A DNA stretch of 64,000 bases. Source: Cristatella mucedo. Taxonomy: Eukaryota > Bryozoa > Phylactolaemata > Cristatellidae. Shown here in pieces: positions 18,687 to 61,555 of the stretch. The notes below the pieces were generated by a model, which was not told the DNA's origin, searched no databases, and saw only the letters and a program-made list of their open reading frames with translations. Positions within the stretch are counted from its first letter, which is position 1; the number at the start of each line of letters is the position of its first letter. The stretch lies in assembly GCA_009760855.2 (NCBI GenBank), contig WPIO01000007.1:6790501-6854500 (forward strand), given 5' to 3'. The position numbers and the translations under genes are program-made.

Positions 18687-18898
18687 CTATGCTACTCACT
18701 ACCTCGACTGCTCTACTGACTCTGCTATGATTCCCACTTTCTCTTTGTTGCGTGAGACGATGTCTGTTGGCTACCGAATGCGTACCGAAAGCCGCTTAGG
18801 CTGCGAGTGCGCTATACAAAACTCTCGTGCGTAAGACCCACATGGTCTTTATGACTTTGTGGAGTTACAGACGGAGATGCATTACATTACATACATTA
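18687..18898 (+). mobile_element. 5'-truncated LINE-A in the 3' flank of a T exon
   Basis: It contains the last coding part (FSLLRETMSVGYRMRTESR) and a TTACATTACATACATTACA tail. The paralogue at 25.59 kb lacks it, so it is a discrete insertion close to the stop codon of the neighbouring T exon. Confidence 0.8.
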
Positions 18899-19086
18899 CA
18901 AACATTTAGGAGTGGGCCAATAGAAAAGCTGCACTGCCCACGCTACCGGTTCGGTTCTTGAGAGACCAAGATTCCCAAGAACCACGATGCATGTGTCAAA
19001 ACTTCTAACACATTTCAGCATGCAATCCATGCAACCATGCAAGTGAACCGAGCCGGTACTGGGAGTATTTTGACTTGGCATTCTGA
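18896..19086 (-). CDS. T exon copy 3, altered C-terminus
   Basis: Terminal exon entering in phase 1 after CATTTTAG. It keeps the family core with LHGCMDCMLKCVRSFDTC (C-x2-C-x3-C-x6-C) but has lost one base just after DTCIV relative to the copies at 25.6 and 49.0 kb. The frame therefore changes and runs to a TAA provided near the inserted LINE-A. The total length (63 codons) is about the same as in the intact copies, so the product would differ only in its last 25 or so residues. It may be a decayed copy or a variant tail. It follows the E5 copy at 19180-19656, with no E6 between. Confidence 0.5.
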
Positions 19087-19179
19087 CTAAAATGTCAGAA
19101 TTTCCGCTGCATAAGCCGCATCTAAACTTCTCAATGAAGCAATATTAAACGACAAAAGGGTAAACGAAGTAGAGCGTAC

Positions 19180-19656
19180 CGTGTAACGTCATGTGAGGCT
19201 GATAAGCCGACGATGACGGCTGGCTCGCCGCCGTTGGCAACGGAGGCTTGGCCGGCTGCTCGACGTCGGCCGCCGGCGGCGGCTGGGCTGCCTGAGCGGC
19301 AGCCTCGTGCGCCACCGCGGCCGCCGCCGCCTGAGTGCCGCTCGCCGTCTGCTCGGAGCCGCCACGGCCGCCGCCGGACGGCGGCGTCCGAGCTGGGGTC
19401 GGTCTTGGTTTCGGTGCGTGGAGCCACGTAGGAGCGAACCGCATCGTCTCCGACAAATCGCTTTCGGCTACTTTTCGACCCTTTTGTGTAACGGCAGCGG
19501 GCTTCGTTCCTTCGGCGGCGCCAGCGACGGCAGGCGCTGGCGCACTAGACTTCTCCGACGCTGCTTGCGACGCGTCCGATCTTGAGTGCTCCGAAGCTGA
19601 GGCAGCGGCTGCACCGGCCTGGCCGGTCGGTGGAGGGGCGTGGTCGTCAGGTTTTG
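19180..19656 (-). CDS. E5 cassette copy 3 (phase 1-1), disordered Ala/Pro/Ser-rich
   Basis: A 477-nt minus-strand exon from a classical acceptor (CTTTCTTTCTTCTAG) to a CACG|GTACGC donor, phase 1 at both ends, 158 full codons, no stop. It is paralogous to the E5 exons at 30.9-31.3 and 54.0-54.4 kb: same start (KP.DH), the shared block MRFAPTWLHAPKP compared with MKRFGPRWAPKP, SGTQAAAAA, and AQPP.AADVE. Its 3' end instead matches E6 (MTLHG), so it may be an E5/E6 hybrid formed by recombination. It is followed by the T exon at 18896-19086 with matching phase. No known domain is recognised; intrinsic disorder is inferred from composition. Confidence 0.6.
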
Positions 19657-20240
19657 CTAGAAGAAAGAAAGATCGTCGCTGGAGTCTGCATGCATTGCTC
19701 GCTGTACGGAGGGCAGATCACGTGAGCGAGAAAGAGATTTTATGCAACGTAAACTGCTCGTGGTCCGGCTGCATGGTTCGACTAATCAGAGACAGCGAAA
19801 TGTGGCCCAAATCGCTCTACGCTTTCTGCCCGTTTGTCGGCGTCTACGGACGATATCTCTCGGTTTCTTCTCGTCCGTTGAAGCCGTCGAATTGACGGCC
19901 GGTGGGCGCGCTGCGTCCACGAATCTTACGGGTTCACGAGTTTCGACGTTCCTTCGTCCAGCTAAATGGTCATACCTGCACACGATCGCATAATCCTCTT
20001 GTTGGACTTACGACGGATTCCAGCTACGCTCGCGTGCGGCAGATATGGAAAGTCGTCCAACACCGCTACACCGCCCCCTCGACGTCCGAGGCCCCGCCCA
20101 CTCTCTGCCACGCCGAGGCCTCCCCGATTGTAAATATGCAGGGACACGCAGACGAATAGTTTGTGGTGTTCTCTCACACACCCTCCCGCCATCTTCGTAG
20201 GAAAAAGAACGAGTAACGTGAGTCAGACGCCTCATTTATT
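19657..20240 (-). promoter_or_regulatory. candidate promoter/leader region upstream of E5 copy 3
   Basis: CCCGCCATCTT at 20,185-20,195 is, on the minus strand, AAGATGGCGGG, a YY1-type promoter motif. GC-box-like GGGCGGGGCC and GGGGGCGG follow at about 20.07-20.10 kb. A minus-strand ATG overlaps the YY1 motif and opens a 76-codon frame, and a second frame to about 19.79 kb follows a CAG. Related sequence lies at 31.7-32.05 and 41.95-42.48 kb. In the 42-kb copy one frame carries a 3-bp indel and remains open for a time, weakly suggesting coding. Confidence 0.3.
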
Positions 20241-22600
20241 TAGAGGCGGATAGTAAGAAGAGTGACAAATGTAAATTTGAAAGCACCGAGATCCACATTT
20301 CGGTGATTAGTAGATTAGCACCGGCATTGAATGCTTCGTTTTAAATTCTCATTGACCAAGATTAAAACAATTTTCTGACAAAAATTGTTGTGCCAGAACT
20401 ATGGCAATTCTGCGGTCGGCTTTAGACGAAGGATCGAGCTAACTTTCGAGGCTGGGGGAGAATTCAAGGATCGCCTCTATAATTTGTCCTAAGCCTGATG
20501 GGTTTTCTTGAAACAGACCGACCCTGCAAGCTGCAAGAACCTGTAGACGGTTGGCCAATCGGCAGGCCTCTTCAGTCTAAGCATACCTATATGGAGTAGC
20601 CGACACACCGGAAACGAACTCGGAAGTTTGGTGCAGCAGACGCGACCACAAATGTGACATGGCAACCGAGAAAAAAGTATTCGAAGAAATAGCCCTAATT
20701 ACCCTGCGACCATTAGATGGGTTGATTCAATTGAAATCTTCGTTTCGTTTCAATCGCAGTGTGGTTCGAGGGGGAGGATGCTTCGGCTCTGGCACAGACG
20801 CTGCTTTGGCAGACGCAGGCGCTCTGCCATTGGCTGTGCCCTATACATTTGCACGACGATTTCCTCATGGTGGCCATCGGGTGCTACTGCTAGCGCAGGA
20901 TGTGGCGGCGCCACTGGAGGCGAAGCTTGCCTCTCTTTTTCGTTTGCATGCACACATTTGTCGCAATGCTGCAATGTTGCTGGCGAGGGAAGCAGTGTGA
21001 CGCAGTCACTGCTTGAAGCGCTCGGCTTTCAGCCACGGCAGTCGGGACTCGTCATCGCTGAATCGCGTCACAGAGTGCGGCTGCACCGATTGACCCAGCC
21101 CTGTGCCGATTGATTGATCGCCGAGCGATATGCTCTCAAAGCCTGGAACTCCATTCCGACTTGCGTCACAACATCTCCTGACTTGACCACATTTAAAAAT
21201 AACTTAAAAACACACCAATTTAGGACAGCATTTACTGGGTCCCCGTGATTCGTTCTTCATGTGCTTATGCGTGCTGACACTGTGCATGCTGCCATTAACT
21301 ACCACATTTGCATGCTGACCCTGTGCATGTCACCCCTAACCATGTTATTCATGTTGTTTATCAAGCATAATATTTCTCACGATTCAATTGCATTTCCATT
21401 TGCAGCAAATGTAAAGCGCCTAGAAAGAGATTGAGTTCTCTGAGGGCGCTTTATCAAGTGCATTATTATTATGATTATTATAATTCGAATGATGACGAAA
21501 CCGAGCTATCAGCTATGAGAATAATCGTCACTTCGCTCGACCGGTATTTCTTTTGCAGAATCCATGGAGAATCTGGTGGTCCTGTTTCAATACAACCTTT
21601 CTCTAGATGACCACGTACACTATACAGTCAAATTTACCTAGTTTCAGTTTTTATCATAGCAAAAATGTACAGATGCTTAGACACGAACGTGATGTTAGTC
21701 CATGCATCTTAGGCATTCGTCCAAGCTTCTGTACCGTCTTCTTGCAGGTCTTTTGGCGTTTGAAATAACAATCTAACAGATGGTACGCAGCTCGGAAGCT
21801 TAGATTTTATTTTGCTGCGTAGATCATTGTAGCGGCAACATTGCAGGCATTCTCACTGACCAAGGGTTCGTAAGCCATCGGACTGCGGGGGGGGGGTAAT
21901 AGGAGGAACATATGTCTACCAACAGTTTTTTCGATACTTTCAAAAAGATGCGCGTGTTGGAAATCTGAAGGTTTGATACTTCACGTATTTCCGTTATGAG
22001 ACATTTTTTTTATAACGAAAGTAGTCTTTCGCGACATATCAAAATTCAGCTTCGGCTGAATATCGGGCCTACGTAAGTAACAGTGTGTCTCCGGCAAATT
22101 TCGTAAATAGTAACTCTAAACTTCTAAAGAGATGTTAAACCATTTCTCAAAGCCATACAATCAGCGTCGAACGTTGTAAATACCAAAGTGCCGCCAAAAT
22201 AAACCCTTATTAGACGGTAATAGTATAATACAGATGCAGCAGTCCTAACCCTCACTGGCCCGCACTCACTGGAGAGACGAACGGCTATTCCATACGGTCG
22301 CTCGTTTGCTTACTTTCTAGGCGTTGATTTCCATGCATAGGGTTCACCTGGTTGAATTCTTCGCGGTTCTGCCGTCTTGCAGAACTTGACCGCTGTCAGT
22401 TCAGCCTCCATGCTGTGCATCTTCCTAGCGTTACATAAGGTCTTAACCAAGTGGTAAGGCGCTCTCACGTCACGACCCTGATCGTGGTATTTGTTGCTTG
22501 CAACACCAAGTCGTTTATTACTCGTTGTGAGCGGCCGCCAACTCTCTTTTGGCCGGTAAACAAACAAAGCGAGGGGAACCAGATGACCTTCACTTGACTT
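20241..22600. other. non-coding duplicated block with one LINE-B insertion
   Basis: This is paralogous to 32.1-34.9 and 42.5-44.95 kb (partly also 54.7-55.3 kb). It holds LINE-B at 21.12-21.49 kb and, near 22.44-22.56 kb, an old antisense-readable SINE-like segment. A 113-codon frame at 20.66-21.0 kb is open but is broken or altered in paralogues. No exon is supported. Confidence 0.45.
21120..21490 (+). mobile_element. LINE-B 3' fragment
   Basis: It runs from the KAWNSIPTC-like C-terminal codons through the 3' UTR (CCCTGTGCATGTCACCCC) to the tail hairpin (AAAGCGCCTAGAAAGAGATT) and ATT repeat. It is absent at the paralogous position at 33.47 kb. Confidence 0.8.
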
Positions 22601-25880: not shown

Positions 25881-27062
25881 CATGTAACGTCGGGTGCATT
25901 GATTCCGCGATGGGGTGGTTTCCAGTAAGATCAGCTTGGAGACGACCTTGCTGTTCTCGTACAGCCGCCGCTGCAGTAGTGGATACAAGAGTAGCTGTTT
26001 GCACAACACTCGAGGGTGCAGTATGATCCTGATGATGGCCATGGGTTGCAGATGCCTGGTGATGAGTCATCGAGAGAGGCGTGGCTTGTGCTACTTCGTT
26101 TGCTTGCGAGACTTTCTCTCTATGGCCGCTTGATGGTGATGGCAACGTTGATGTGGGTATAGGGAGGTGCTCTTCTGCCACTGTGCTATGTGCCGATGGT
26201 GCACCGGCCGCTGCTGAATAAACATTTTGTGCATCCGGTTGGGAGACAGGTACATTCTGATTGTGCCTCTCAGGCGACAGAGCGTGGTCCTCGGGTGCAG
26301 TGGTCGCCGAGCCATTATTAGATGGCCCTTCGACTGCACTAGCCATGCCGGGCACGGACGGTCGAGTAGGACGTACGCTCGATTTGCTATTGCTTGGTGA
26401 TGCAGGTCTTTCTCTTTTGGGATTGCTTGGCGATGCCGTCTGCCGTGATACCGGCGACACAGAATGGTCAGAATGCAGTTCGGTAATCGTTGGCGAGCCT
26501 TTTCGAGATGGGTCAGCTGGTGGCGCTTCCGAAAGCGAACTTTTGTGTCCTGCTATTGCAACTGCTATTTGGTCTTTCGACAAGGTCGCCGCCCTCGTAA
26601 CAGATGGCTGCTTAGGAGACACACCAGACTTAGCTGCTAGCAATGAAGACGCGCCTGTCTGGCTGTCGCTTTGCAATGCTGGTACAGGTGGTTCCGGTGC
26701 GGCTTGGTGGGCGCTGGCTGTGGCAGCAGCTGTGCTGTGGGGGTCCTCACTCGCCCGCGTCTGCTGGTCCGAGCCGCGCTCCTTCCCAGGCTCTTGTCTC
26801 GCCGATTTGTTCAACTTTCCCGCTTGCGATTTGCTAGCTGTAGATGTTTGAGATTTGGGACTCTTTAGGAGTTTTGCTGCCGCAGTATCCTGGATCGCAT
26901 GTGTATCATTCGGAGATGACTTTGGATCTTCGTGCTGCTTACTGGATGCAGAAGCGTCAGAAGCAGCTGCAAATACATGCCGATAAAAGTCAGGACGCAG
27001 ACAGAGATACATGTGCTCAAATAATAACCAGATGGTCGCAACTTGAGGCAGCGTACAATGAG
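25881..27062 (-). CDS. E6 cassette copy 2 (phase 1-1), shortened disordered exon
   Basis: Minus-strand open exon ending CATG|GTACGT in phase 1. Two in-frame acceptors are possible: TCTGTAAGCTTTGCAG (start 27062), which adds 32 codons containing two Cys and several aromatic residues (HCTLPQVATIWLLFEHMYLC), or GTATTTGCAG (start 26966). The body is Ser/Thr/Pro/Ala/His-rich, e.g. SKSQTSTASKSQAGK, SPVSRQTASPSNPKR, TAAAAVREQQGRLQ. It lacks an internal block of about 340 codons present in copy 1 (49236-51446) but keeps the frame. Intrinsically disordered; O-glycosylation or mucin-like character is only inferred. Confidence 0.7.
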
Positions 27063-27469
27063 CTGCAAAGCTTACAGACAAAAACATCAGGTTCTTCGTC
27101 CTAGTCATTGTCAATAATAGCACCACCCATATACCTGTACGTGATGATTTTGTGCAGATTCATACGGTCCAATAAGATTGATTTTTTAAATGTACTGTAT
27201 TGCATTACCGTGCATGCCTTCAAAATCATCGTATCTTGGGTACGAAATGTTCAATTTGAATGTTTGAGACCGTGCTTAGCTGCGAAAGCGCCTGAATGTA
27301 GCGGCTACCGTGGATAGACCGATCCGAGTCACCAGCCTCTGAACGGACTTATAACAGAATATTAACTTATTCGCAGATTCAACAGCATCGCATGCATAAA
27401 GAAAGCTACTATTCAAAGTCACGTATCTTTGGTCTTCCTGAATAAGCAGGTTGAATACAATGTAATGTA
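27063..27469. other. intron-side sequence upstream of E6; no feature
   Basis: Nearly identical to 51.45-51.85 kb. No exon recognised. Confidence 0.4.
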
Positions 27470-28890
27470 TCTCCACATGTAACTCCACAAAGGCACAAAG
27501 ATTGTGCGGGTGTGTTATGCAGGACAGTTTTGTGTAGCGCACTCACAGCCGAAACGGCAATCTGTACGCATTCGGTAGCCAACAGACTTCATCTCACGCA
27601 ACAAAGAGAAAGTGACAAGCATAACTGAGCCAGGAGAGCTGTTGAGGCTGTGAATAGCATGGAAGTAGCAGCATAAGGCGGCTGGAAAGGAAGTGCCATA
27701 GTCAGCAGCAGAAGAATAGTTGTTGTGTAAGAATTGTGTAAGTGAATTCCACAGTCTAGGACCTGCAGAGCTAAAGCTTCTGTGGCCAACGGTCTTTAGG
27801 CGGATGAATGGAATAAATAATGTATTGTACATTCACGACCTGAGGGCACGGGGAGGCTGTAACTGGTGCAGCAGTTTAGCTATCTATGGAGGGACCAAGC
27901 TGTGGCGGGCGTTGTGGGTCAGCGTAAGAACTTTGCTCTGTATCCTTCGATCAAACGGCAGCCATCCTAGCTCTTTTAATAAAGGAGACACGTAGTCAAA
28001 CTTCTGTGATTTTCAAACTAGCATTGCAGCCGTATTTATAGCCAGCTGCAGTTGGCCGAGTGGCTTTATTTGGTAGCCCAGCCAAAACGGAATAACAATA
28101 ATCTAGCCGAGACAGATCTAAAAGGCTAGTTAAATTTTTTGAAAGCCAATGTGGAAGACAGTTCCTAATCTCAGACAGGGATGGACGTGATTGCTAGCTG
28201 TGGGAATAGTCATCTTGACGAAGCTTTTAAAATTAAGGCACCTGTCGAAGACGACACCTACAGTCCGAGCAGATCGTGATGGTCGCACAACAGCATCATT
28301 TACTCGAAGGGAAAAGTCTTCTAGTCCAGTCTTTAGGTGTATTATGAGAAGCAATTCAGTTATATCTCTGTTTAGTTGAAGGAAATTTGACGCTAACCAT
28401 GGTCGAATGGCGTCAAGGCAAGCATTCAGTTTATCTGTTGCTGCAGCAGGTACCGACGGTTGAAATGAACAATACAGCTACGTGTCGTCAGCATAAAAGT
28501 GATATCCTATTCAACGGGCCCGAATCACTGTTCCCAGAGGTTGAAAAGAAATGGAGAATAGCAAAGGGCAGATGACGGACCCACGAGGGACTCCACAGGT
28601 AACTGGTCTGATGGATATATCGTGATCAATGGCGGTGTCGAAGGCAGCTGATAGATATAGCAACGCTTGGGTGGTGACATTAGTCGGAGGAGAATAGTTT
28701 CAGTGGAGTGCTTCCGCTTAAACCCTTAGTGAAATTGTTCTGGAATTTTAATCTTTCAATGCGTGCTACCAGCTGTTTAGCGACAATTCTTTTTACTCTG
28801 TTGGCAATTGCTGACCCTAGTGAAAATGACATTAAGTCTTTGGAATAAGAGAAAATATCTTTAACCAGATGCCTTAGAACCCGCTGCAAG
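27470..28890 (-). mobile_element. LINE-A relic in an intron
   Basis: Minus-strand reverse transcriptase relic with many frameshifts: NRVKRIVAKQLVARIERL-type motif near 28.8 kb, a region of the YxDD block destroyed, RSARTVGVVFDRCLNFKSF near 28.26 kb, SFSSAGPRLWNSLTQFL near 27.75 kb and FSLLREMKSVGYRMRTD at 27.6 kb. The copy at 51.85-53.1 kb shares the same breaks, so the insertion predates the duplication. Confidence 0.85.
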
Positions 28891-31395: not shown

Positions 31396-32544
31396 CTGCA
31401 ACGTAGACGTACAATACATGCAGGTGGATAGGCCCCCAACCTACACGGCTTCCTGACTTTAAGGCAACTTGGGCCACGGTGGCAAACTGCCCGGGGGGAT
31501 GCGGGTATGGGGAGTTTTAGTGTTTAGTGGTTAGGTCTTTATGGCTTAGCATCCAGGGTTTAGGGTTTTAGGGCCTCAGCCGCCTAAATCCACCCGTTCT
31601 CGTATTCCGTCCTTTAATTAGTGCCAATTATGTCGAAACTAGATCTCATGAGCTTGAGGTATACTCAGTACATCTCTGAGGCTTAGAGCTTAGAGCTTAG
31701 AGCAGGAACTCATGGCACGCCATAGCGAGAGCCGCGCTTGGACGGATTCCAGCTCGCGACTCCAGATTCTGCACTCGCGTGTGGTAGATATTGAAAGTTG
31801 GCTCGTCGTCGCCGCCCCCTCGACTTCCGAAACGAACCCCCCCCCGCCACGGGGAGGCCTCTCCGATTGTAGGCCTGATCAGTTGACAAGCAGTCTCACG
31901 GAGAGAGCCTTGGACGCCGGATTCTTTGTGTTACACGCGCATTCCGGTAAAGGTTCTATGCGGGCGCATGTAAATATGCTGGGACACGCAGACGAATACT
32001 TTGTGGTGTTCTCCCACCATCCTTCCGCCATCTTCGTATAAAAAAGTACAGGTAATGTGATTTTTCGCCTCATTTATTTAGAGGCGAATAGTAAGAAGTG
32101 TGGCAAAGGCAAATTTTAGAGCGCCAAGATCCACATTTCAGCGATTAATAAATTAGCACCGGTATTGAATGCTTCGTTTTTAAATTCTCATTTACCTAGA
32201 TTAAAACGGTTTTCTGACGAAATAAGTGTTGCCAGAACTATGGCAATTCTGCGGTTGGCTGTAGACGAAGGATCGAGCTAACTTTCGAGGCTGGAGGAGA
32301 AATCAAGGGTCGCCTCTATAATTTGTCCTAAGCCTGATGGGTTTTCTTGAAACAGACCGACCCTACAAGCTGCAAGAATCTGTAGACGGTTTGCCGATCG
32401 GCAGGCCTCTTCAGTCTAAGCATACCTATATGGAGTAGCCGACACACCGGAAACGAACTCGGAAGTTTGGTGCAGCAGACGCGACCACAAATGTGACATG
32501 GCAACCGAGAAAAAGTATTCGAAGAAATAGCCCTAATTACCCGG
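31396..32544. other. upstream region of E5 copy 2; promoter-like motif at 32.03 kb
   Basis: TTCCGCCATCTT at 32,023-32,034 (minus strand AAGATGGCGGAA) again forms a YY1-type motif, as at 20.19 kb. A 109-codon plus-strand frame covers 31.71-32.04 kb but is not conserved in the paralogues. Near 31.55-31.58 kb there are two TTTAGGG-like units, and at 31.68-31.70 kb three copies of CTTAGAG. Confidence 0.3.
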
Positions 32545-33078
32545 CGACCGGTAATAATATAATAATAAAAATATTGCACTTGATAAAGCACCCTCAGAGA
32601 ACTTAATCTCTTTCTAGGCGCTTTACATTTGCTGCAAAGTGATATGCAATAGAATAGTAAGTAAAATCATGCTTGAAAAACAAACAAAATGAATAATATG
32701 GTTAGGGGTGACATGCACAGGGTCAGCATGCAAATGTGGTTAGTGGCAGCATGCACAGTGTCAGCACGCATAAGCACACCAAGGACGAATCACAGGGACC
32801 CACTAAATGCTGTCCTAAATAGGTGTGTTTTTAAGTTTCTTTTAAATGTGGTCAGGTCAGGGGATGTTCTGACGCAGGTCGGGAGGGAGTTCCAGGCTTT
32901 GGGAGCGTACGAGCTGAATGCACGGTCTCCAAAGGATTTAAGGTTTGTACGAGGTATTTCCAGACTGTTGGATTCCGAAAAGCGAGTGGTACGATGCTTG
33001 GCCTGATGGGGTAGTATATCTGAAAGATAGGCTGGAGCCATAGAATGAAGAGACCTAAAAGTGAGCGACAAAACCTTG
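32545..33078 (-). mobile_element. LINE-B 3' part (about 530 bp)
   Basis: Minus strand, from the AT-rich tail and hairpin through the 3' UTR to the reverse transcriptase C-terminus (KSFGDRAFSSYAPKAWNSL, SLHSMAPAYLSDILPHQ). The paralogous sites at 20.71 and 55.05 kb are contiguous (GCGACCrTTAGATGGG), giving an exact empty site with a possible CCG duplication. It is one of the least decayed LINE-B copies here. Confidence 0.85.
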
Positions 33079-35390
33079 AAGTCAATCCGTTAGATGGGTT
33101 GATTCAATCGAGATTTTCGTTTTGTTGCGCTCGCAGTGTGGTTCGAGGGGGAGGATGCTTCGGCTCTTGCACAGACGCTGCTTTGGCAGACGCTGGCTCT
33201 GCCATTGGCTGTGCTCTATATATTTGCACGACCATTTCCTTATGACGGCCATCGGGTGCTACTGCTAACGCCGGATGTGGCGGCGCCACTAAAGGTGAAT
33301 CTTGCCTCTCTTTTTCGTTTGCATGCACACATTTGTCGCAATGCTGCAATGTTGCTGGCGAGGGAAGCAGTGCGATGCAGCCCCTTCTTGACGCACTCGG
33401 CTTTCAGCCACGGCAGTCGGGACTCGTCATCGTTGGATCACGTCACAGAGTGAGACTAAATCACTAAATCTAATCCGCCAAAAGCGCCGCAGGTGATCCA
33501 TATAGTTATAGGGTGCCCAAGTGGCTGCTCGATTTTCAATTCCTTCCAGCTACGCTTCCTACCTCCTGCGCTGTGAAACCTCTTTTCCTCTCTACTCGTA
33601 AGTGACTACTTGGCATAATTAAAGTTCCCGCATCGGTCTCAGCTAGTTTGATAAATCGAATGATGACAAGGTCGAGCTAACAGCTATGAGACAAATTGTC
33701 ACTTACAAACGTAAAGCTCCAAAGCTCTTAATTGAAATTAGCTGGTTCGCTATTTCTTCCGCAGCCTCCATGGAGAATTCTGTTTCAAAACAATAGTTTG
33801 ACTATCTTTAGGTGCCACAAGCCAACGACAATGTCATAATCTCATAAAAGCCACAAAAACAAAGACTTCTCTAGGTGACCACGTAAGCTTTTCAAACAAA
33901 AAATGCAAAATATTGCAAACTTTGCAAAAATTTGCAAACAAAACGTAACATTCAAGTTGACCTAGTTTCAGTTTCTTGCGTAGCTAAAACGTTGATGTGC
34001 TTAGCCACCAACGTGATGTTAGTCCATGGATTTTAGGCATTCATCCATGCTTCTGTACCATTGTATTGCAGGTATTTTAGCGTGTGCAGTAAAAAGCAAA
34101 CAGATGGTACGCAGCTCGGAAGCTTAGATTCTATTTTGCTGTAATCATCGTAGTTGCAACATTACACACATTCTCTCTGACCAGAGGTTCGTAAGCCATC
34201 GGACTGCGGGGGGGGGGGGTGAGAATAGGAGGAGCATATGTCTACCAACAGTTTTTGTTTTCGATACTATTAAAAAATGCGCGTGTTGGAAATTCAATCC
34301 AAAGGTTTGATACTTCACATATTTCCGTTATAAGAATGTTTACATCGGAAGTAGCCTTTCGCGACTTACCTAACTTCAGCTTCGGCTGAATATCGGGCCT
34401 ACGTAATAGTGTGTCTCGAGCGAACGTCGTAAATAAAAGCTCTTAACTGCTAACCAGGCGCCTAACTATTCCTCGAAACCATACAGTAAGTGTTGAATTA
34501 CCTACATACTCAAGGGAATTCAAAATAAATCCTTATTAGACAGTAAGAGTAAAATACAACTGCGACAGTCCTAACCCTCCCGGTCCCTCCATCACCGGAG
34601 GCTCAGCTTGTGCGAACGACTTTTTCATACGGTCGCTCGTTTGCTTACTTTCTAGGCGTTGATTTCCATGCATAGGGTTCACCAGGTTGAATTATTCGCG
34701 GTCCGGCCGTCTTGCAGAACTTGACCGCTGTCAGTTCAGCCTCCATGCTGTGCATCTTCCTAGCGTTACATAAGGTCTTAACCAAGTGGTAAGGCGCTCT
34801 CACGTCGCGACCCTGATCGTGGTATTTGTTGCTTGCAACACCAAGTCGTTTATTACTCGTTGTGAGCGGCCGCCAACTCTCTTTTGGCCGGTAAACAAAC
34901 AAAGCGAGGGAACCAGATGACCTTCACTTGACCTTTACTCGCTTCACATTTGGAGTGGTGCTGCAAAAACCATGTTTGACCTTAGCTGACGGCATGCTTA
35001 GCTAATTCCTTTAATAAACTGATCTGATTACTTAGCTTGAAATTGACCTCAAATCCATTGCAGCCAAATCCTTCGATTCTTATGCTACCGTAGCCAGAAT
35101 TATATGCCGACTGAGGTCATTCCATAATGGCACCTAACAAAAAACTGAAAACCACCACGTATTCTCGAAAATATTGTCTTGTCCATGTGGATGTTTCAGG
35201 CATGGTGCTTGTGCTTACCAAAAAGGTGGCGAGAATAAGTTTAAGTCCTTTTAAGATTTAAAGCAAGCGTCATACTATTACTACTAACTATGCGATAATA
35301 TAGTTTTGATTAAATTTTTATGACTCGAATGATTTTAAATCCTCGTAGAAAGCTGCGAAATCCCTGATAATGTTCAACGTAGCTTCATCG
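33079..35390. other. non-coding duplicated block
   Basis: Paralogous to 20.7-22.6 and 43.0-45.1 kb. The 85-codon minus-strand frame at 34.65-34.9 kb is almost identical to that at 22.31-22.57 kb but overlaps an old SINE in antisense and is broken at 44.65-44.9 kb. Not supported as a gene. Confidence 0.4.
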
Positions 35391-36594: not shown

Positions 36595-38345
36595 GATGTT
36601 ATGTATCCCGTCTGTAACTCCACAAAGTCATAAAGACCACGTGGGTGTTACGTGGGAAAGTTTTGTATAGCACACTCACAGCCTAAGCGGCTTTCTGTAC
36701 TCATTCGGTAGCCAACAGACTACGTGTTACGCAACAAAGAGAAAGTGGGAAGCATAGCAGAGTCAGGAGAGCAGTTTAGGTAGTGAGTAGCATTGAAGTA
36801 GCAGCTCACTACAGCTGAAAAGGATGAGTCATAGTCGGTAGTAGGAGAGTAGTTGTCGTTGCGTAGGAATTGTGGAAGCGAGTTCCACAGTCAAGGACCT
36901 GCAGACCTAAAGCTTCTGTCGCCAACGGTCTTTAAGTGGAGGAATTTAGCAGCTAATTTATTGTCCACACAGGACCTGAGGGCGCGAACAGGCTGAAACT
37001 GATGCAGCAATTCAGCTAGGTACGAATGAGCCAAGCCGTGGCGGGCCTTGTGGGTCAGCGTAAGAACTTTGCTCTGTATCCGTTGCTCAACCGGCATCCA
37101 TCCTAGCTCTTTTAGCAAAGGAGACACGTGCTCAAACCACTGGGACTTGAAGACTAGCCTTGCAGCCATATTTATAGTCGGCTGCAGTGGCCTAATAGCT
37201 TTCTTCGGCAGCCCAGCCAAAAGGGAATTACAATAATCAAGCCGAGACAGAACTAAGGAGCTAGTTAAATTCTTTACAAGCCACTGTGGGAGACAGCTCC
37301 TAATTTCGGATAGGGATCGGACGTGATGGCTAGCTGTAGAAGCAGTTTTCTGAATGAAGCTTTCAAAATTGAGGCAGCTGTCGAAAACGGTACCTAAATT
37401 TCGAGCACCTGGTGATGGTCGAACAATAAAATAACCTATTAGACGAGCAAAGCCTTTTAATCCAGCCACACGCTTAGGGTGTCCTAAGAGCAGCAGTTTA
37501 GTTTTATTATTATTTAATATCAGGAAGTTTTCCGACATCCAGGATCAAATATAGGCAAGGCAAGCATTCAGTTTCTCAGTTGCCGCAGCAGATTCCTTCG
37601 GTTTGAATGACAAATACAACTGAGTATTGTCAGAATAGAAGTGATATCCTATTCCATGTGCCTTAATCACTTTTCCCAGAGGTTGTGTATAAATGAAGAA
37701 CACCAAGGGACCGAGTACAGACCCTTGAGGGACTCCACAGGTGACCCTTCTCGTGTCTGAGACCTGACCCCCACACGACACGAATTGAACGCGATCAGAC
37801 AAGTACGATTTAAGCCACGCCAGTGCTTCGTCTGCGAGACCGATGGTTGTTCTCATGCGTTCAAGCAGAACCTCGGGATTAATGGTGTCGAAGGCAGCAG
37901 ACAGATCTAGCAGAGCTATGGCAGTGACATTCCCGTCTTCGTTGCCACGTAGAATGCCATTGTTAACACGGAGGAGAGCCGTTTCAGTGGAGTGCTTCGT
38001 CTTGAACCCTGATTGAAATGTTTCTGACATTCCATTATTTTCAATATGTTCAACCAGCTGCTTAGCAACAATGTTTTCAAGAATCTTTGATAAGAACGGA
38101 AGAAGGGAAACTGGGCGATAGTTTGCAAGGATCTCTGTGTCTAATCCAGGCTTTTTCATAATGGGTCTAACAATTTCCGATTTGAAGGACTTGGGGACGA
38201 CCCATTTTTTCAGAAGAAGCATTAATAGGAAAGACAGAAGGAAAACGGGAGGAAATTTACTTAAATCATCAAGATCCTGGGTAGGTTTTAATGAGTGTCG
38301 CATGATTGCCGTTTGCAAGAAGGTAGGATTTACCGGCAGCCTGCA
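36595..38345 (-). mobile_element. LINE-A, best preserved reverse transcriptase, inactive
   Basis: Minus strand, about 1.75 kb. Two long frames lie in the same register: 37545-38318 (257 codons) and 36891-37538 (215 codons). RT landmarks in order: [54 protein letters not shown], then YSDN where active elements have YADD, and the C-terminal KKAIRPLQPTINMAARLV. Single-base nonsense changes (CGA to TGA after CLAYI; AGA to TGA after RSAGP) plus the altered catalytic Asp show inactivity. It is 5'-truncated, with no endonuclease. It ends with the usual GTTACAGACGG region and is absent from the paralogous position in unit 2, so it inserted after the duplication or was lost there. Confidence 0.9.
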
Positions 38346-41545: not shown

Positions 41546-43397
41546 ATTTTAGTCGCTGAAAGAGTGAATTCGTACTATATTAGAATTCCTGCTGACACTG
41601 TTAGGCGATATTACACAACGCGAGCAAGAAAAATCAAGTCACGATTAGAAAATTTGTGCGAGTAAGAAAAGTAAGTTGAGTGAAAAAGTAAGTGCAGCCA
41701 GTAAAGCAAGCGATTGTACATGTAAGCAATTGAATGGATGTTAAAGATTAATTACTAATGATAAAGTAGAGCATAGTTTTGAATGCAGGGTGTAACGCGA
41801 GCATGAATTTCTAGTTAGTTAGGAAAGACGCTGAGCAAACTATGAATATTGAAACTGTTTGGCTATGAGTATGAGGTGGTAGGAGGCTGTTGATTGCGAT
41901 ATTCAGTTACGATATCAAGCACAGCCGTGCCGTTGCACGGTTCGGCTAGCCAATTACACCTAATTGGGGTCATATCACTCTCCCTTTTTTGCCTGTTCGT
42001 CGGCGTCTACGGACGATACCATCTCGCTTTCTTCTCATCCGTTGGAGCCGTCGACTTGACGGCCGGTGGGCGCGCCAATGCATCTACGAAACTTACGGGC
42101 TCAAGAGTTTCGACGCTCCTTTGTCCAGCTAAATGGTCATACCTGTACACGATCGCGTAGCCCTCGTTTGGGACTTACGACGGATTCCAGCTACACTCGC
42201 GTGCGGTAGATATTGAAAGTTGGCTTGTCGTCCAACACCGCTACGCCGCCCCCTCGACGTCCGAGGCAAACCCCCCACTGCCATGGGAGGCCTCCCCAAT
42301 TGGAACCCTGAACAGATGACGAGGAGACTCACGCGGAGAGCCTAACGTTGGACGCCGGATTCAAGGTGCTACGCATGCATCCCGGTAAAGGTTCTACGCG
42401 TGCGTGTGTAAATATGTAGAGACATGCAGACAAATACTTTGTGGTATTCTGTCACACATCCTCCCGAAATCTTCATAGGAGAAAGTACGGGTAAAGTGAT
42501 TCAAAAGCCTTATTTATTTAGAGGCGGATAGGAATAAGTGTGACAAGGCGAAATTTAGAGCGCTAAGATCCACGTTTCGACGATTAATAGATTTTCGCCG
42601 GTATTGCACGTTTCATTATTATATCCTTATTGACCTAGGTTACATCGATTTTCTGTCGGAAAGTTATTTGCCAGAACCATGGCAGTTCTGCGTTCGGCTT
42701 TAGATGACGGATTGAGTTAACTTTCGAGGCTGGGCGTAAATTTAAGGCTCGCCTCTATAATTTCTCCTTAGCCCGATTTACTCTTCTGAAAACAAACCGA
42801 CCTTGCAAGCTGCAAGAACCTGCAGACGGTTTTCCCATCGGCAGGCGTCTCCAGTCTCAGCATACCTATATAGAGTAGCCTAAACACCGTAAACGGTCTC
42901 GTAAGGTTGGCACAAAAGACACAAACATGACATGGCACCACAAACATGACATGGCAACGGAGACGTATTCGATTCGAAGAAATAGCACTAATTACCCTGC
43001 GACCGTGAGACCGTGAGGTTGATTCAATTTTGCGCTTCGATCGCAGTGAGTGAGTGAGTGCGAGGGGGAGGATGCTTCGGCTCTTGCACAGACGCTGCAT
43101 TGGCAGACGCAGGCTCTCTGCCATTGGCTGTGCCTACATTTTTGCACGACAATTTCCTCATGGCAGCCATCGGGTGCTACTGCTAGCGCCGGATGTGGCG
43201 GCGCCACTGGAGGCGACGATTGCCTCTTGTTTTCTCTAGCTTGTGCGAATTCGTCGCAACGCTGCAATGCTGATGACGAGAGCAGCAGTGCGATGCAGCC
43301 ACTACCTGAAGTGGTCGGCTCTGTGTCTTGGCAGTTGGGACTTGTGCTGGGTGGATCGCGCCACAGATTGAGACTATCTCTACATGTAAACTTCACT
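41546..43397. other. duplication junction, then non-coding duplicated block
   Basis: 41.55-41.9 kb has no match elsewhere in the window and separates the two units. 41.92-42.48 kb resembles 19.76-20.2 kb and 42.48-43.4 kb resembles 20.24-21.1 kb, with clearly lower identity than other parts of the units. No exon is firmly supported. Confidence 0.45.
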
Positions 43398-46562: not shown

Positions 46563-46564
46563 GA

Positions 46565-48958: not shown

Positions 48959-49140
48959 TTAGGAATGGGCCAATAGAAAAGCTGAACTGAATAGGCTACC
49001 GGTTCGGTTCTTGAGAGACCAAGATTCCCAAGAACGCATGATGCATGTGTCAAAACTTCTAACACATTTCAGCATGCAATCCATACAACCATGCAAACGA
49101 ATCGAGCCGGCACTGGGGGTACTTTGTCTTGGAATTCCTG
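48959..49140 (-). CDS. T exon copy 1 (terminal, Cys motif)
   Basis: Terminal exon of the complete gene: enters in phase 1 after AATTTTTTTAG and encodes about 60 residues with STPSAGSIRL, HGCMDCMLKCVRSFDTC (C-x2-C-x3-C-x6-C), SWESWSLKNRTGSL and FLLAHS before TAA (48959-48961). The same TAA is present in the aligned 18.9-kb copy, so this is probably the ancestral stop. It is too short and polar for a membrane anchor; an Asn-Arg-Thr sequon is present. Four Cys could pair intramolecularly or dimerise the secreted product. Not a recognised family. Confidence 0.65.
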
Positions 49141-49235: not shown

Positions 49236-51446
49236 CGTGTAACGTCGGGTGCATTGATTCCGCGATGGGTTGGTTTCCAGTAAGATCTGCTTGGAGACGA
49301 CCTTGCTGTTCTCGTACAGCCGCCGCTGCAGTAGTGGATACAAGAGTAGCTGTTTGCACAACACTCGAGGGTGCAGTATGATCCTGATGATGGCCATGGG
49401 TTGCAGATGCCTGGTGATGAGTCATCGAGAGAGGCGTGGCTCGTGCTACTTCGTTCGCTTGCGAGACCTTCTTTCCCTGCTCGCTTGATGGTGATGGCAA
49501 CGTCGATGTGGGTATAGCGAGGTGCTCTTCTGCCACTGTGCTATGTGCCGATGGTGCACCGGCCGTTGCTGAAGAAACATTTTGTGCATCCGGTTGGGAG
49601 ACAGGTACATTCTGATTGTGCCTATTCTCGGGCGACAGAGCGTGGTCCTCGGGTGCAGTGTTCGCCGAGCCATTATTAGATGGCCCAGCGATTGCACTAG
49701 CCATGCCGGGCACGGACGGTCGAGTAGGACGTTCGTTCGATTTGCTATTGCTTGGTGATGCAGGTCTTGGTCTTTTGGGATTGCTTGGCGATGCCGTCTG
49801 CCGTGATACCGGCGACACAGAATGGTCAGAATGCAGTGCGGTCGTAGTTGGCGAGCCTTTTCGAGATGGGTCAGCTGGTGGCGCTTCCAAAAGCGAACTT
49901 TTGTGTCCGTTATCCGATATCGCATGAGGCTCTGCTTTAGAAGTACCGGAAATGCGTGCATTCCCTTCGGGCGGGCCTTTCCTTGCTTCACTCGACGGTT
50001 GCTGCACATGCGCTGCAAAGGAGCCAGCCAAGCCAGACGACTGATCGGACGTCAAATGTGCGCCTGGCTGGGAGGAGCTTGCAGAGGCAATGCCCGACGG
50101 GTCTTTATGGTCCTTGCTTGGCGAAACCGACTTCGGAGTTGAATGGGGCCCTGTAGCTGGAAGATCGCTAGAAGCTGGCGATGACGGAGGCGGCATCTTC
50201 TTTTGATGATCGCCGGGTGGTTCTCGTTGCTGCGGCCTCGTGGAATCAATGCCGTCAGTCGGCAGTGTCGATATTGCTGCGTGCACGCCACTCGGGGAGA
50301 GCTCTTTTGAAGGGTGTCCGGACCGATGGAGTTTCGTTTCTCGCGAAAGATGAGGTCCTGCTTCAGATGAGCCACGAACCGCCGGGTGTGCTGCTGCCGG
50401 CTGAGTGGCTGCAGCCGTCACGCCGCATGCAGTCGCATTCAAAGCTGATAAGTCTCTCTGGGTGCCAGTCGATGACGTCAGATCGTGCGGCTCTGCAGTC
50501 GCAGATGGGCCAGACGGCGGATGCGGTGAGGCTGTCGTTGGTGAACTAATTGCTGGCGGGTAAGTAATGTCTTTCAAGCATTTAGTTGGTGACGAAAGGT
50601 GTAGCAGATGAGCAGTATCAGCTTGGTGTTGAGTTGGCGTCGCAGGGTGGGGCAAATTAGACGATACGCCATTACCAGTTGGGCGAGAACTGCTGAAGTC
50701 ATTCTGGTGTACCGGCGACGTTTCGTGAACGCTCGCCGGTGCAGCTTGTTTGCGACCTGAAAGTTGGGCAGCCTCGGAGGACTCTTTGGAGCCACCCACT
50801 ATCGCCGCCGATACGGGAGACTCACGTTTTTCATCTGCTGTCGCATCTTTCTCGAATTTATGCGGAGACGGGGTGCGGGACATCGATGGCGACGCGTCCT
50901 TTTCAGTCGATGGGCCGGCAGGCGTAGTAATTTTGTGACTCGAAATTGCTATTTGGTCTTTCGACAAGGTCGCCGCCCTCGTAACAGATGGCTGCTTAGG
51001 AGACACACCAGACTTAGCTGCTAGCAATGAAGACGCGCCTGTCTGGCTGTCGCTTTGCAATGCTGGTACAGGTGGTTCCGGTGCGGCTTGGTGGGCGCTG
51101 GCTGTGGCAGCAGCTGTGCTGTGGGGGTCCTCACTCGCCCGCGTCTGCTGGTCCGAGCCGCGCTCCTTCCCAGGCTCTTGTCTCGCCGATTTGTTCAACT
51201 TTCCCGCTTGCGATTTGCTAGCTGTAGATGTTTGAGATTTGGGACTCTTTAGGAGTTTTGCTGCCGCAGTATCCTGGATCGCATGTGTATCATTCGGAGA
51301 TGACTTTGGATCTTCGTGCTGCTTACTGGATGCAGAAGCGTCAGAAGCAGCTGCAAATACATGCCGATAAAAGTCAGGACGCAGACAGAGATACATGTGC
51401 TCAAATAATAACCAGATGGTCGCAACTTGAGGCAGCGTACAATGAG
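49236..51446 (-). CDS. E6 cassette copy 1 (phase 1-1), giant disordered exon
   Basis: A 2211-nt open minus-strand exon (736 codons; 704 if the inner acceptor at 51350 is used), ending CACG|GTACGT in phase 1. Strongly biased to Ser, Thr, Pro, Ala, His and Gln with almost no long hydrophobic run. Short motifs: SMSRTPSPHKFEKDATADEK, PSSPASSDLPATGPHSTPK, SNPKRPRPASPSNSKS, HQASATHGHHQDHTAPSS. A 2-kb frame without a stop, with an in-frame indel against copy 2, argues for coding constraint. Likely intrinsically disordered; Ser/Thr density allows heavy O-glycosylation if secreted. The outer acceptor adds a Cys/aromatic start (HCTLPQVATIWL). Confidence 0.75.
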
Positions 51447-51853
51447 CTGCAAAGCTTACAGACAAAAACATCAGGTTCTTCGTCCTAGTCATTGTCAATA
51501 ATAGCACCACCCATATACCTGTACGTGATGATTTTGTGCAGATTCATACGGTCCAATAAGATTGATTTTTTAAATGTACTGTATTGCATTACCGTGCATG
51601 CCTTCAAAATCATCGTATCTTGGGTACGAAATGTTCAATTTGAATGTTTGAGACCGTGCTTAGCTGCGAAAGCGCCTGAATGTAGCGGCTACCGTGGATA
51701 GACCGATCCGAGTCACCAGCCTCTGAACGGACTTATAACAGAATATTAACTTATTCGCAGATTCAACAGCATCGCATGCATAAAGAAAGCTACTATTCAA
51801 AGTCACGTATCTTTGGTCTTCCTGAATAAGCAGGTTGAATACAATGTAATGTA
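51447..51853. other. intron-side sequence, nearly identical to 27.06-27.47 kb
   Basis: No feature seen apart from the duplication. Confidence 0.4.
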
Positions 51854-53110
51854 TCTCCACATGTAACTCCACAAAGGCACAAAGATTGTGCGGGTGTGTT
51901 ATGCAGGACAGTTTTGTGTAGCGCACTCACAGCCGAAACGGCAATCTGTACGCATTCGGTAGCCAACAGACTTCATCTCACGCAACAAAGAGAAAGTGAC
52001 AAGCATAACTGAGTCAGGAGAGCTGTTGAGGCTGTGAATAGCATGGAAGTAGCAGCATAAGGCGGCTGGAAAGGAAGTGCCATAGTCAGCAGCAGAAGAA
52101 TAGTTGTTGTGTAAGAATTGTGTAAGTGAATTCCACAGTCTAGGACCTGCAGAGCTAAAGCTTCTGTGGCCAACGGTCTTTAGGCGGATGAATGGAATAA
52201 ATAATGTATTGTACATTCACGACCTGAGGGCACGGGGAGGCTGTAACTGGTGCAGCAGTTTAGCTATCTATGGAGGGACCAAGCTGTGGCGGGCGTTGTG
52301 GGTCAGCGTAAGAACTTTGCTCTGTATCCTTCGATCAAACGGCAGCCATCCTAGCTCTTTTAATAAAGGAGACACGTAGTCAAACTTCTGTGATTTTCAA
52401 ACTAGCATTGCAGCCGTATTTATAGCCAGCTGCAGTTGGCCGAGTGGCTTTATTTGGTAGCCCAGCCAAAACGGAATAACAATAATCTAGCCGAGACAGA
52501 TCTAAAAGGCTAGTTAAATTTTTTGAAAGCCAATGTGGAAGACAGTTCCTAATCTCAGACAGGGATGGACGTGATTGCTAGCTGTGGGAATAGTCATCTT
52601 GACGAAGCTTTTAAAATTAAGGCACCTGTCGAAGACGACACCTACAGTCCGAGCAGATCGTGATGGTCGCACAACAGCATCATTTACTCGAAGGGAAAAG
52701 TCTTCTAGTCCAGTCTTTAGGTGTATTATGAGAAGCAATTCAGTTATATCTCTGTTTAGTTGAAGGAAATTTGACGCTAACCATGGTCGAATGGCGTCAA
52801 GGCAAGCATTCAGTTTATCTGTTGCTGCAGCAGGTACCGACGGTTGAAATGAACAATACAGCTACGTGTCGTCAGCATAAAAGTGATATCCTATTCAACG
52901 GGCCCGAATCACTGTTCCCAGAGGTTGAAAAGAAATGGAGAATAGCAAAGGGCAGATGACGGACCCACGAGGGACTCCACAGGTAACTGGTCTGATGGAT
53001 ATATCGTGATCAATGGCGGTGTCGAAGGCAGCTGATAGATATAGCAATGCTAGGGTGGTGACATTACTCGGAGGAGAGCATTTTCAGTGGAGTGCTTCCG
53101 CTTAAACCCT
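51854..53110 (-). mobile_element. LINE-A relic, duplicate of 27.47-28.73 kb
   Basis: Same breaks and stops as the other copy and almost identical in sequence, so it moved by segmental duplication, not retrotransposition. The right end joins directly to the EMKSVGY-type tail at 53.12 kb because the 28.73-29.86 equivalent is missing. Confidence 0.85.
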
Positions 53111-54529: not shown

Positions 54530-55902
54530 CTGCAACGTAGACGTACAAGTACATGTAGGCAGATGTAGGCCCCCAACCTACATAGCTTCTTAGCTTAACG
54601 ACAACTTGGGCCAAGGTAGGAAACTGCCCCCGGGGGATGCGGGTATGGGGAGCTCTGATGCTACCTCGCCAACTCTGCACAAGCAGAAGTTGCTTTGTGA
54701 TGGAAAATTTTCTGACGGAAATTGCGTTGCCAGAACTATGGCAATTCTGTGGTCGGCTTTAGACGAGGGATCGAGCTAACTTTTGAGGCTGGAGGAGAAT
54801 TCAAGGGTCGCCTCTATAATTTGTCCTAAGCCCGATGGGTTTTCTTGAAACAGACCAACCCTGCAAGCTGCAAGAATCTGTAGACGGTTTGCCGATCGGC
54901 AGGCCTCTTCAGTCTAAGCATACCTATATGGAGTAGCCGACACACCGGAAACGAACTCGGAAGTTAGGCGTAGCAGACGCAAACACAAACGTGACATGGC
55001 AACCGAGAAAAAAGTATTCGAAGAAATAGATCTAATTACCCTGCGACCGTTAGATGGGTTGATTCAATTGAAATCTTCGCTTCGTTGCGCTCGCAGTGTG
55101 GTTCGAGGGGGTTTTTGTCCTTTTCTACACTGAACCCCGGATGTGGCAGCGATACTGGAAGTGACGGCTGGCTCTTTGTTTCTTTAACGATGCGCATATC
55201 TGTCGCAATGCTGCAATGTTGATGACGAGGGAAGCACTGCGACGCAGTCACTGCTTGAAGTGCTCGGCTTTCAGCCTCGGCAGTCGGGACTCGTCATCTT
55301 TGGATCACGTCACAGAGTGAGACTAAATCACTAAATCTGGAAACTAAATCTGGAATCTAAAACTGGATAACTAGTCCAACGTTTTATGACGCTGCGTTCA
55401 CATGACTGCGATTGCTTTTATTTAGCATTCCCGATCAGTGCCTTAAGTCGTCTGCACGGTGCAAAACTCAGCAGCTCGTCAGGTGTACCGTCAAAGTAGT
55501 AGAGTAACTGCAGTAGCTAAAACGTTTACGACTGAGCATCGCTGGCTACCAAATCAGGCTTGATAGTTGATTTTAATTCCTTGGTCTGGCTCATATCCTA
55601 GATCCCTTCACTCACTTGCTTGTTCAACCTCCTTGCTTGTCTGGTGTACTCTCGCAAAATCCGTATCGAAGCATCTTGTCATCTTGGCGTCGGTCAAGCT
55701 AAATTGAAATTCTTGATTGACCGGGCCCTCAGACCATACGAATCGAATGTCTGAGTTTTGCAGTCGGATAAGGTCACTCACTATCTGGAAAAATCTTGTG
55801 TTACATATATAAGTCTCAGCCAAAGAAGCGTCTGTTTATGCCAGCTTTCTTTTTGCCCACGTAACCCTACTTTTTTCAGTAGGGTTGGCGTACTTTCATG
55901 TG
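54530..55902. other. non-coding duplicated block with LINE-D relic
   Basis: 54.7-55.33 kb matches 20.38-21.08 and 32.2-33.46 kb. 55.37-55.9 kb matches 35.53-36.06 kb, the 2-kb segment between them being deleted here. No exon. Confidence 0.45.
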
Positions 55903-59369: not shown

Positions 59370-59648
59370 CATGTATTCCATATCTCTCCAAGATTTTCGA
59401 AATATCTACTTTGGGTTTGCTGGCCTTGGCATCATTTCGCTGAATTCGAGCGCCAGTCTGTGAGGTCTGCTTGGCGGCACGAGAGCGCTGCGGCTTCGGT
59501 TGCAGTTGATCGCTTGGCTGCGGAAGAGCCGAATGTGCTGGCCCGTCTCGAGGCTGCTGAACATCGGTCGACGGCGGGCTACGAATGGCCGGCGGTGACG
59601 ATGTGATAATTTCCCGTGTGACGATACGCTCTTGCGAAAACACTTGAA
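59370..59648 (-). CDS. E4 cassette copy 1 (phase 1-1)
   Basis: A 279-nt exon between CGCTTTGCAG and CATG|GTAAGT; Ser/Pro-rich start, basic middle (KPKPQRSRAAKQTSQTGAR), helix-like end DISKILERYGIHG. The last residues (IHG before the donor) parallel LHG at the end of E6. Same length as copy 2, with substitutions at several positions. Confidence 0.7.
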
Positions 59649-59878: not shown

Positions 59879-59998
59879 CTCGAGTTGTTTCGGTGAGCGT
59901 CTGCCGATCCAGAGCGGAGCTGATGGGTGACAGGAGCTCGCTTGCCGACGTCTGTGTGGGACCTCGCAAAAGGTCATTGGCGAGTGTGTGCAGGGGAT
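59879..59998 (-). CDS. E3 cassette copy 1 (phase 1-1)
   Basis: A 120-nt exon between GTTCGCTTACAG and CGAG|GTAGGT encoding 39 full codons (LHTLANDLLRGP, SELLSPISSALDRQ). It joins E2 (ends phase 1) and E4 (starts phase 1). Confidence 0.6.
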
Positions 59999-60344: not shown

Positions 60345-60603
60345 GGATAATAATGATAATGCATTCGATATAGCACCCACAGAGAACTCAATCTCTCTCT
60401 AAGCACTTTGCATTTGCTGCATAGAAAGCACGATCGAATGGTTAGTGGTATCATGCTTGATAAACAACAAGAATAACATGGTTAGGGGTGACACGCACAA
60501 GGTCAGCATGCAGTTATGACTAGTGGCAGCATGCAAAGTATCAGCACGCATAAGCACATATAGAGGAATCACGGGGACCCACTAAATGCTATCATAAATG
60601 CTT
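60345..60603 (-). mobile_element. LINE-B 3' fragment, end of unit 2
   Basis: Duplicate of 41.26-41.52 kb. Paralogy ends within it, at about TATCATAAATG, followed by unique sequence. Confidence 0.8.
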
Positions 60604-61137
60604 TCCCATAGCATCTTGATGTTTCTATACAACGTACCGCCCTGGTTGGGCCCCGGGGTAATGTTCTTGCCTTGAACGACCAAGTTCGTGGAGTCGAGCC
60701 ATGTAGCATACTTATTACGTTCGGAAAGAGACGAAGCCCTATTATTTCGCTTCACAGATGTGTGCATATTACACGTACAATATACCAATATATACAATCG
60801 TCCAAGTAGAAGAATAGATGCAAACTCAAGATATTTGGTTACTGAATGCCGAAGCGAGTTGCAGTCTTTCGGTGCACAAGAACCGAAGGATTAATAATCA
60901 AAAGAATCAGTGCGATTCAGTGCGAGAAACGACGGGCGAGAGGACTTGAAGCTGAGGAGGAGCAGTGCGAATGCGAGAGCTCACGCGGAGCATGGAGGGC
61001 GGAGCGGATAGGCTGCTACGACCGAGTGAAACTACCTGTACGGGCAGAGAAAGGATTTCGAAGTCAATTACAGGTAACGACTTTGAGGCCTCTCGAGCGT
61101 CTGTGAGGCCTCGCGAGCTTCCTGTTTTGTCACATAC
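60604..61137. other. intron 2 region; possible SINE fragment
   Basis: 60.64-60.71 kb (GGTTGGGCCCCGGGGTAATG ... GGAGTCGAGCC) resembles a tRNA-like SINE head, weakly. The remainder is unique, with no exon. Confidence 0.3.
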
Positions 61138-61402
61138 CAGAGGATTGTGGGGCGTGCTGATCCTGCGTGGGATCTGGATGTGGTGGCTGGTCTTCGTGCT
61201 TTCCAGGAGATCGTAACTTCGTCCCCACTGCAGAGCCAAATTTAGTAGATAGTTTCTCCTTGTCCTGCTTCACGCGATCTTCTGATACCGCAGTGTCATC
61301 TCTGCGGGTGACCTTCGGCGCCCAGACGTCGCTACCTGAGACTGAACTTGACCAGCTTGGCTGAGGCTGCAGTCTGTCAAACTGGTAGCGCCTCGGTGCT
61401 TT
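61138..61402 (-). CDS. E2, first mature-chain exon (phase 0-1)
   Basis: A 265-nt exon after CTTCTCTGCTTTGCAG and before CTCTG|GTATGT, entering in phase 0 and leaving in phase 1, thus converting the gene to the phase-1 register of all later cassettes. It encodes APRRYQFDRLQPQPSW, DVWAPKVTRRDDTAV, KQDKEKLSTKFGSAVGTKLR, ending in a His/Pro/Gln-rich run. The VWAPK segment recalls the APKP block of E5. Present once only; not duplicated. Confidence 0.65.
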
Positions 61403-61492
61403 CTGCAAAGCAGAGAAGTATCGTCAGAGAAATACAAAAGACGACGCGGCGTATGCTCCGGAGCTCCGAATAAAATACAGCAGCCAGTCTAC
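61403..61492 (-). other. candidate short first intron (90 or 33 nt)
   Basis: Ends in a good CTCTGCTTTGCAG acceptor. The donor is either ACC|GTAGAC at 61,492 (90-nt intron) or TTT|GTATTT at 61,435 (33-nt intron). Both keep phase 0 and both donors are weak; without splicing the frame stops at TGA inside this stretch. Confidence 0.4.
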
Positions 61493-61555
61493 GGTTGTCA
61501 AAAGCGCACAACAGAAGAGCATAATGTCAAGCACAAAACTTCTGGTCAACTTCAT
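61493..61555 (-). CDS. E1, start codon and signal peptide
   Basis: Minus-strand ATG at 61553-61555 opens MKLTRSFVLDIMLFCCALL, a positively charged start followed by a hydrophobic core, the layout of a secretory signal peptide. If the later donor is used (exon to 61436) the core is followed by SSGAYA and then ASS, giving a plausible signal-peptidase site after A-Y-A. The product would thus be exported. Only one copy exists; the second cassette set at 40.9 kb has no equivalent nearby. Upstream promoter elements were not identified. Confidence 0.5.

Follow-up and report, generated by a model that had tools for sequence, protein, structure and literature searches.

Block duplication of symmetric exons in a candidate 59-kb gene for a long, mostly disordered protein in Cristatella mucedo

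A 64,000-nucleotide (nt) stretch of the Cristatella mucedo genome (contig WPIO01000007.1, positions 6,790,501 to 6,854,500; hereafter the window) contains an array of minus-strand open segments that a preliminary description had presented as a gene family for secreted proteins. In our reading, which we hold with about as much confidence as doubt, the array would belong to a single minus-strand gene of ~59 kb that grew by duplication of blocks of symmetric exons and encodes a long, mostly disordered and most likely intracellular protein. The gene would span from a candidate first exon, E0 (starting at ~64645, past the window edge), through E2, to at least exon E7 (ending at 5939), and we infer that all of its duplicated units lie within one transcript. 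Its internal exons, entered and left in phase 1, would have been copied blockwise by tandem segmental duplication (units D, C, B and A) and later partly homogenised. The encoded protein is predicted to be rich in Ser, Ala, Pro, Thr and Gln and poor in Cys, and would stay in the cell as a flexible linker or scaffold, variable in length and in the number of its motif-bearing cassettes.

The model comprises 12 exons, all on the minus strand. E0 (64645-64394, i.e. 394-645 bases past the window edge) begins with an ATG, runs for 84 codons and ends in ACG followed by the donor GTGAGT. Its exit phase of 0 is the one that E2 (61402-61138, 265 nt, phase 0 to 1) requires, so that the two join in frame. 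They are followed by E3 (59998-59879, 120 nt), E4 (59648-59370, 279 nt) and, in unit D, E5 (54444-54001, 444 nt) and E6 (51350-49236, 2115 nt, or 2211 nt if an alternative upstream acceptor at 51446 is used). Copies of these exons were found as E3' (40914-40795, one difference from E3 in 120 sites), E4' (40564-40286, seven differences from E4 in 279) and, in unit B, E5' (31310-30864) and E6' (26966-25881), the last being 1029 nt shorter than E6 in total (gaps of 342 codons and one codon). Unit A contributes E5'' (19656-19180), an in-frame fusion of the acceptor side of E5 with the donor side of E6 in which both splice ends are kept. E7 (6100-5939; acceptor score 6.0, donor score 4.8) lies outside the range covered by the preliminary description and encodes REWQQS-type repeats. 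All ten internal exons are readable in phase 1-1, and the 12-exon chain from E0 through E2 to E7 amounts to 6046 nt and is stop-free. Because entry phase equals exit phase, each block added, lost or fused (E5'' being such a fusion) would have kept the frame open. Open minus-strand segments with AG and GT ends had been placed here by the preliminary description, and E2 to E6 were indeed found together with their copies; the phase-1 entry and exit that it had given to the internal exons also held.

Evidence for coding was sought in frame length, in divergence between exon copies and in insertions and deletions (indels). The open frames of E6 (785 codons) and E6' (442 codons) were longer than any obtained in 200 dinucleotide shuffles each. 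Frame length was unremarkable for E5, E5', E5'', E4 and E2 (reached by 23, 27, 23, 60 and 63 of 200 shuffles, respectively), and E5 is taken as coding because of the comparison between its copies and not because of its frame length. Between units D and B, 8 of the 444 sites of E5 have changed (1.8%), as against 37 of 466 (7.9%) in the flanking introns (p = 1e-5). The ratio of nonsynonymous to synonymous substitution rates (dN/dS) was 0.21 for E5 versus E5' (p = 0.03), 0.28 for E5 versus E5'' (Fisher p = 0.0005) and 0.28 for E5' versus E5'' (p = 0.001), the latter two over ~52 hand-cut, well-aligned codons; over all 120 aligned codons of E5'' it was 0.36 against unit D and 0.42 against unit B. 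These ratios (dN/dS 0.21-0.42) show that purifying selection acts on E5. E6 evolved more slowly than its flank as a trend (29/669 versus 27/385 sites, p = 0.07), and the one change between E3 and E3', which is nonsynonymous, is too little to judge. All three exon indels between D and B were multiples of three (3 nt in E5; 3 nt and 342 codons in E6), compared with none of six in three aligned noncoding stretches beside E5 and E6 (1 nt; 1, 2 and 1 nt; 8 and 2 nt; p = 0.012). A fourth noncoding stretch, the near-identical 1760 nt before E6, had no indels.

Scanning both strands for exons with acceptable splice sites gave nine candidates on the minus strand and none on the plus strand at a strict score, namely E2, E3, E5, E3', E5', E7 and three with a common donor at 2682. 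At a middle threshold the counts were 14 and 3, and in a scan widened with flanks to 124 kb, in which frames were counted separately, 29 and 12 rows. The widened scan also picked up an exon past the window edge, at 64509-64394, which becomes E0 when lengthened to its ATG. E2 was in the top class of the scan, with its acceptor at the 99.9th and its donor at the 98.8th percentile; E3 had its acceptor at the 99.6th and its donor at the 99.7th. The donor of E4 stood at the 99.9th percentile and its acceptor at the 88th, with a better-scoring alternative acceptor at 59517. E4, E4' and E5'' surfaced only at the loose score, and no score recovered E6 or E6' with the acceptors assigned here.

Self-comparison of the locus revealed a mosaic of tandem segmental duplications made up of units D (48.8-60.6 kb), C (41.9-48.8 kb), B (25.3-41.5 kb) and A (18.4-25.3 kb), and it is to this tandem duplication that the copies E3', E4', E5', E6' and E5'' are owed. 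In unit C, neither self-comparison nor a copy search turned up an exon copy. Matching blocks between units are ~75-94% alike. The exceptions are the block with E3 and E4, which is 98.6% alike in D and B, and a 2.17-kb tract (26560-28726 versus 50944-53110) that is 99.6% identical, in copies that are ~94% alike beside it. This tract takes in 407 nt of E6' and probably reflects recent gene conversion or duplication. The 124 kb contain a single copy each of E0 (which has one additional weak match of 20 residues, E 0.33), E2 and E7, two copies each of E3, E4 and E6, and three of E5, one of them the fusion. This pattern, in which the start and E7 are single and the symmetric exons between them multiplied, is expected from internal block duplication. 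What had been proposed as a gene family fits better with duplication of exon blocks within one gene, since E0, E2 and E7 are each single in the 124 kb.

Cys makes up 0.1% of the E0-to-E7 chain, Gly 5.0%, and Ser, Ala, Pro, Thr and Gln together 56%. Disorder was judged by charge and hydropathy on the chain of the preliminary description, which runs from its proposed first exon, E1, to its proposed terminal exon, T (both are discussed below): the charge-hydropathy line placed eight of 12 hundred-residue blocks among disordered sequences, in keeping with the mostly disordered sequence that had been reported. The statement that no named family fits was likewise upheld by the searches made. In the protein database, the E1-to-T chain had no match at E ≤ 1 among the 8000 candidates sharing most words, and residues 25-300 of the E1-to-E5 chain had none at E ≤ 10 among 1164 scored. 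Pfam searches with E0 to part of E5, with E7 and with the E6 frame gave nothing above the cut-off, and a sub-threshold match of the E5'' frame to CaM-KIIN (E 0.063) was gone when the exon was searched alone. NCBIfam gave nothing for E0 to part of E5, a query without E6. In PDB, also searched without E6, the two best matches (E 0.11 and 0.41) were both to chorismate synthase. A genome-wide search (572 Mb, 688 contigs) covered E5 and E6 and found no match to them outside the window at the sensitivity of the tool.

Several observations weigh against the single-gene model. The splice weights behind the scan were entered by hand, at the loose threshold there was no minus-strand excess (40 candidates versus 36 on the plus strand), and the acceptors of E4 and E6 are weak. 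Phase 1-1 is not the only reading of E3, which is open in phase 0-0 too, and the last 116 nt of E0 (64509-64394) are open in all three frames. The 3' half of E6 has a dN/dS of 0.84, indistinguishable from 1, while the six nonsynonymous changes and one synonymous change between E4 and E4' are too few to judge. E5'' differs from E5 at 51% of synonymous sites in the aligned part, compared with 7-13% for its own flanks; simple duplication is no explanation for an exon more diverged than its flanks, which suggests that E5'' may be an older exon inside a younger, homogenised frame. Four of the 12 blocks (300, 600, 1000 and 1100, the last being mostly T) fell off the disordered side, and both protein-database queries were taken from chains that start with E1 in place of E0. 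Finally, the 3' end of the gene was not located among the candidates examined, at 4048-3852 and 3367-2996 on the minus strand. The former (phase 1-0) has an acceptor score of -2.1. The latter, a GC-rich exon-like stretch in phase 0-0 that reads AARNAVFAAQWHVCGRQLYPLGG..., had no match in Pfam or PDB, and its predicted fold was all helix with a predicted local distance difference test score (pLDDT) of 47, too poor for a structure search; it may be the C-terminal part of the E0-E7 gene or part of a different gene.

A conserved element, X (20129-21077, 31969-33458, 42407-43376 and 54706-55325), precedes every E5 and also occurs in unit C. It is possible that X is a promoter or a small first exon, and several short tandem genes, in which X supplies every X-E5-E6 unit with a separate promoter and first exon, are an alternative that we regard as rather unlikely. 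X is found in all four units, and within the X of A, B and D there is a 52-nt ATG exon that ends in phase 1 with a donor score of 3.1 (20660-20609, 32499-32448 and 54997-54946). This exon is, however, absent from the seven candidates in the stretch holding unit C, and the copies of X had no coding signal between them among the comparisons listed, on which ground coding exons in X were rejected. A set of short genes would moreover leave E0, E2, E3, E4 and E7 without partners.

We also think it unlikely that unit D alone works, with B and A as defunct or decaying copies too young to have lost their open frames. The near-neutral divergence of E6 and E6' (dN/dS 0.84), the failure of unit C to yield an exon copy and the lack of an E0 and an E2 of their own in B and A would all agree with such decay. 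Against it stand the purifying selection seen on E5 in comparison with both E5' and E5'', the exclusively in-frame indels in E5 and E6 between D and B, and the fusion in E5'', which is in frame with both splice ends retained.

All 1024 of 1024 ordered subsets of the ten internal exons stay open. This follows from the matching phases and is not evidence for splicing, and we find it quite doubtful that at least ten phase-1 cassettes can be spliced in any ordered combination to yield many intracellular linkers of differing length and motif content.

The array of coding exons is genuine; the beginning and end that the preliminary description gave it are probably not. Its signal-peptide-like first exon, E1 (61555-61493, minus strand), has the donor GTAGAC, which ranks at the 43rd percentile among all GT sites of the minus strand. 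The 124 kb contain 15 signal-peptide-like ATGs with a phase-0 GT, and in 11 of these (E1 included) the donor scores no lower than that of E1. With a poor donor and ten other comparable sites, E1 was rejected as the start and is probably not an exon. Long ATG exons with a donor like that of E0 are rare by comparison (nine rows from five donor sites on both strands of the 124 kb), and E0 rather than E1 would appear to be the gene start; judged by eye, E0 does not begin with a signal peptide. The term 'secreted' had been based on E1, and it is without good support because the E1 donor is poor and such starts are not rare.

As for the proposed terminal exon, T (49140-48959, minus strand, 182 nt), its copies in D and B differ at 12 of 182 sites, compared with 15 of 203 in the flanks (p = 0.84); copy A is frameshifted and copy B is without the stop of T. 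T was rejected as the coding end on account of this flank-like divergence, the frameshift and the missing stop, and the 'interchangeable Cys-containing tails' lose good support with it, T being unconstrained and broken in copies A and B. The sum of 3564 nt given for the E1-to-T chain is arithmetically sound: it requires the E6 acceptor at 51446 and a T start at 49140, with the frame open, and with T at 203 nt the sum is 3585, also a multiple of three, from which T at 182 nt removes 21. A secreted protein that starts at E1 and has combinatorially spliced cassettes and alternative tails T is improbable. In its favour, E1 resembles a signal peptide and can be spliced to E2 without loss of frame, subsets of the exons remain in frame, and a T-like stretch follows an E6-type donor in each of units D, B and A. 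Against it, the donor of E1 is poor and has ten equals, E0 is a stronger first exon and has no signal peptide by eye, T is under no constraint, with a frameshift in copy A and no stop in copy B, and Cys amounts to only 0.1% of the exon chain.

Elsewhere in the window, a long interspersed nuclear element (LINE) with a reverse transcriptase (RVT_1, E 1.6e-24) lies on the minus strand at 36894-38345; it is broken by a stop, and related fragments occur at other places in the window. That the cassettes derive from a transposon was rejected, as E5 and E6 matched this window only at the sensitivity of the tool and RVT_1 sits in the separate LINE. Long GGC and GA-type repeats at 3435-3804, 13811-14050 and 62530-63003 produce long false open frames. 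The upstream neighbours on the minus strand are, as far as we can judge by eye, presumably related to a cation channel and to a PIKfyve-type lipid kinase. Rfam gave 0 matches at the gathering score and a tRNA scan gave 0.

Mucins are Ser/Thr/Pro-rich and mostly disordered. The predicted protein shares both features and differs from them in its high Ala and Gln and in that no Pfam domain was found. A signal peptide is not supported, E1 being weak and E0 having none by eye, and membership among the mucins is likewise unsupported. Extracellular domain shuffling in phase 1-1 involves exons that encode known folded domains, and here the phases match, but no Pfam domain exceeded the cut-off in the exons searched.

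According to passages of PMC10526429, schistosome micro-exon genes (MEGs) have exons of 6-81 bp with lengths that are mostly multiples of three, encode a signal peptide, and have products called intrinsically disordered in a handful of studies. The present locus is similar in that its exon lengths are mostly multiples of three and its product is predicted to be disordered. It is unlike them in its exon sizes (120-2115 nt), and MEG proteins carry a signal peptide, whereas here E1 is weak and the stronger E0 is without one by eye. MEGs moreover belong to flatworms, whereas the host is a lophotrochozoan by its mitochondrial COX1, with no flatworm among the named matches in the 120 listed of 7782. 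The named matches among the same 120 were mostly molluscs, to which COX1 (translated with code 5) was up to 82% identical, the highest value for any named protein there; nemerteans, annelids and a phoronid reached 78-81%, and one match listed without a name was 95% identical. COX1-like pieces were also seen on four nuclear-sized contigs, where they are probably mitochondrial insertions.

Three or more neighbouring exons that share a phase have been termed 'successive symmetric exons', with collagens as an example, and symmetric exons are described as hardly enriched in disorder once collagens are excluded (both in passages of PMC4838654). The locus has such a run of symmetric exons in common with collagen-type genes and, unlike collagens, lacks Gly-X-Y repeats (Gly 5.0%) and matched nothing in Pfam over the exons searched. 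Membership in the MEGs and in the collagens was rejected on the features tested.

The mechanism proposed here, copying of symmetric exons, is an ordinary one, as in other genes so enlarged, and the gene is one without a recognised relative. The locus would offer a clear case of a gene for a disordered protein that lengthens, shortens and fuses its exons with the frame intact, some copies being only a few percent apart. It also illustrates how a poor signal-peptide call can recast a probably intracellular protein as a 'secreted effector'. With its copied cassettes, the locus could be used to test whether the symmetric exons of disordered proteins persist through tolerance of copying.

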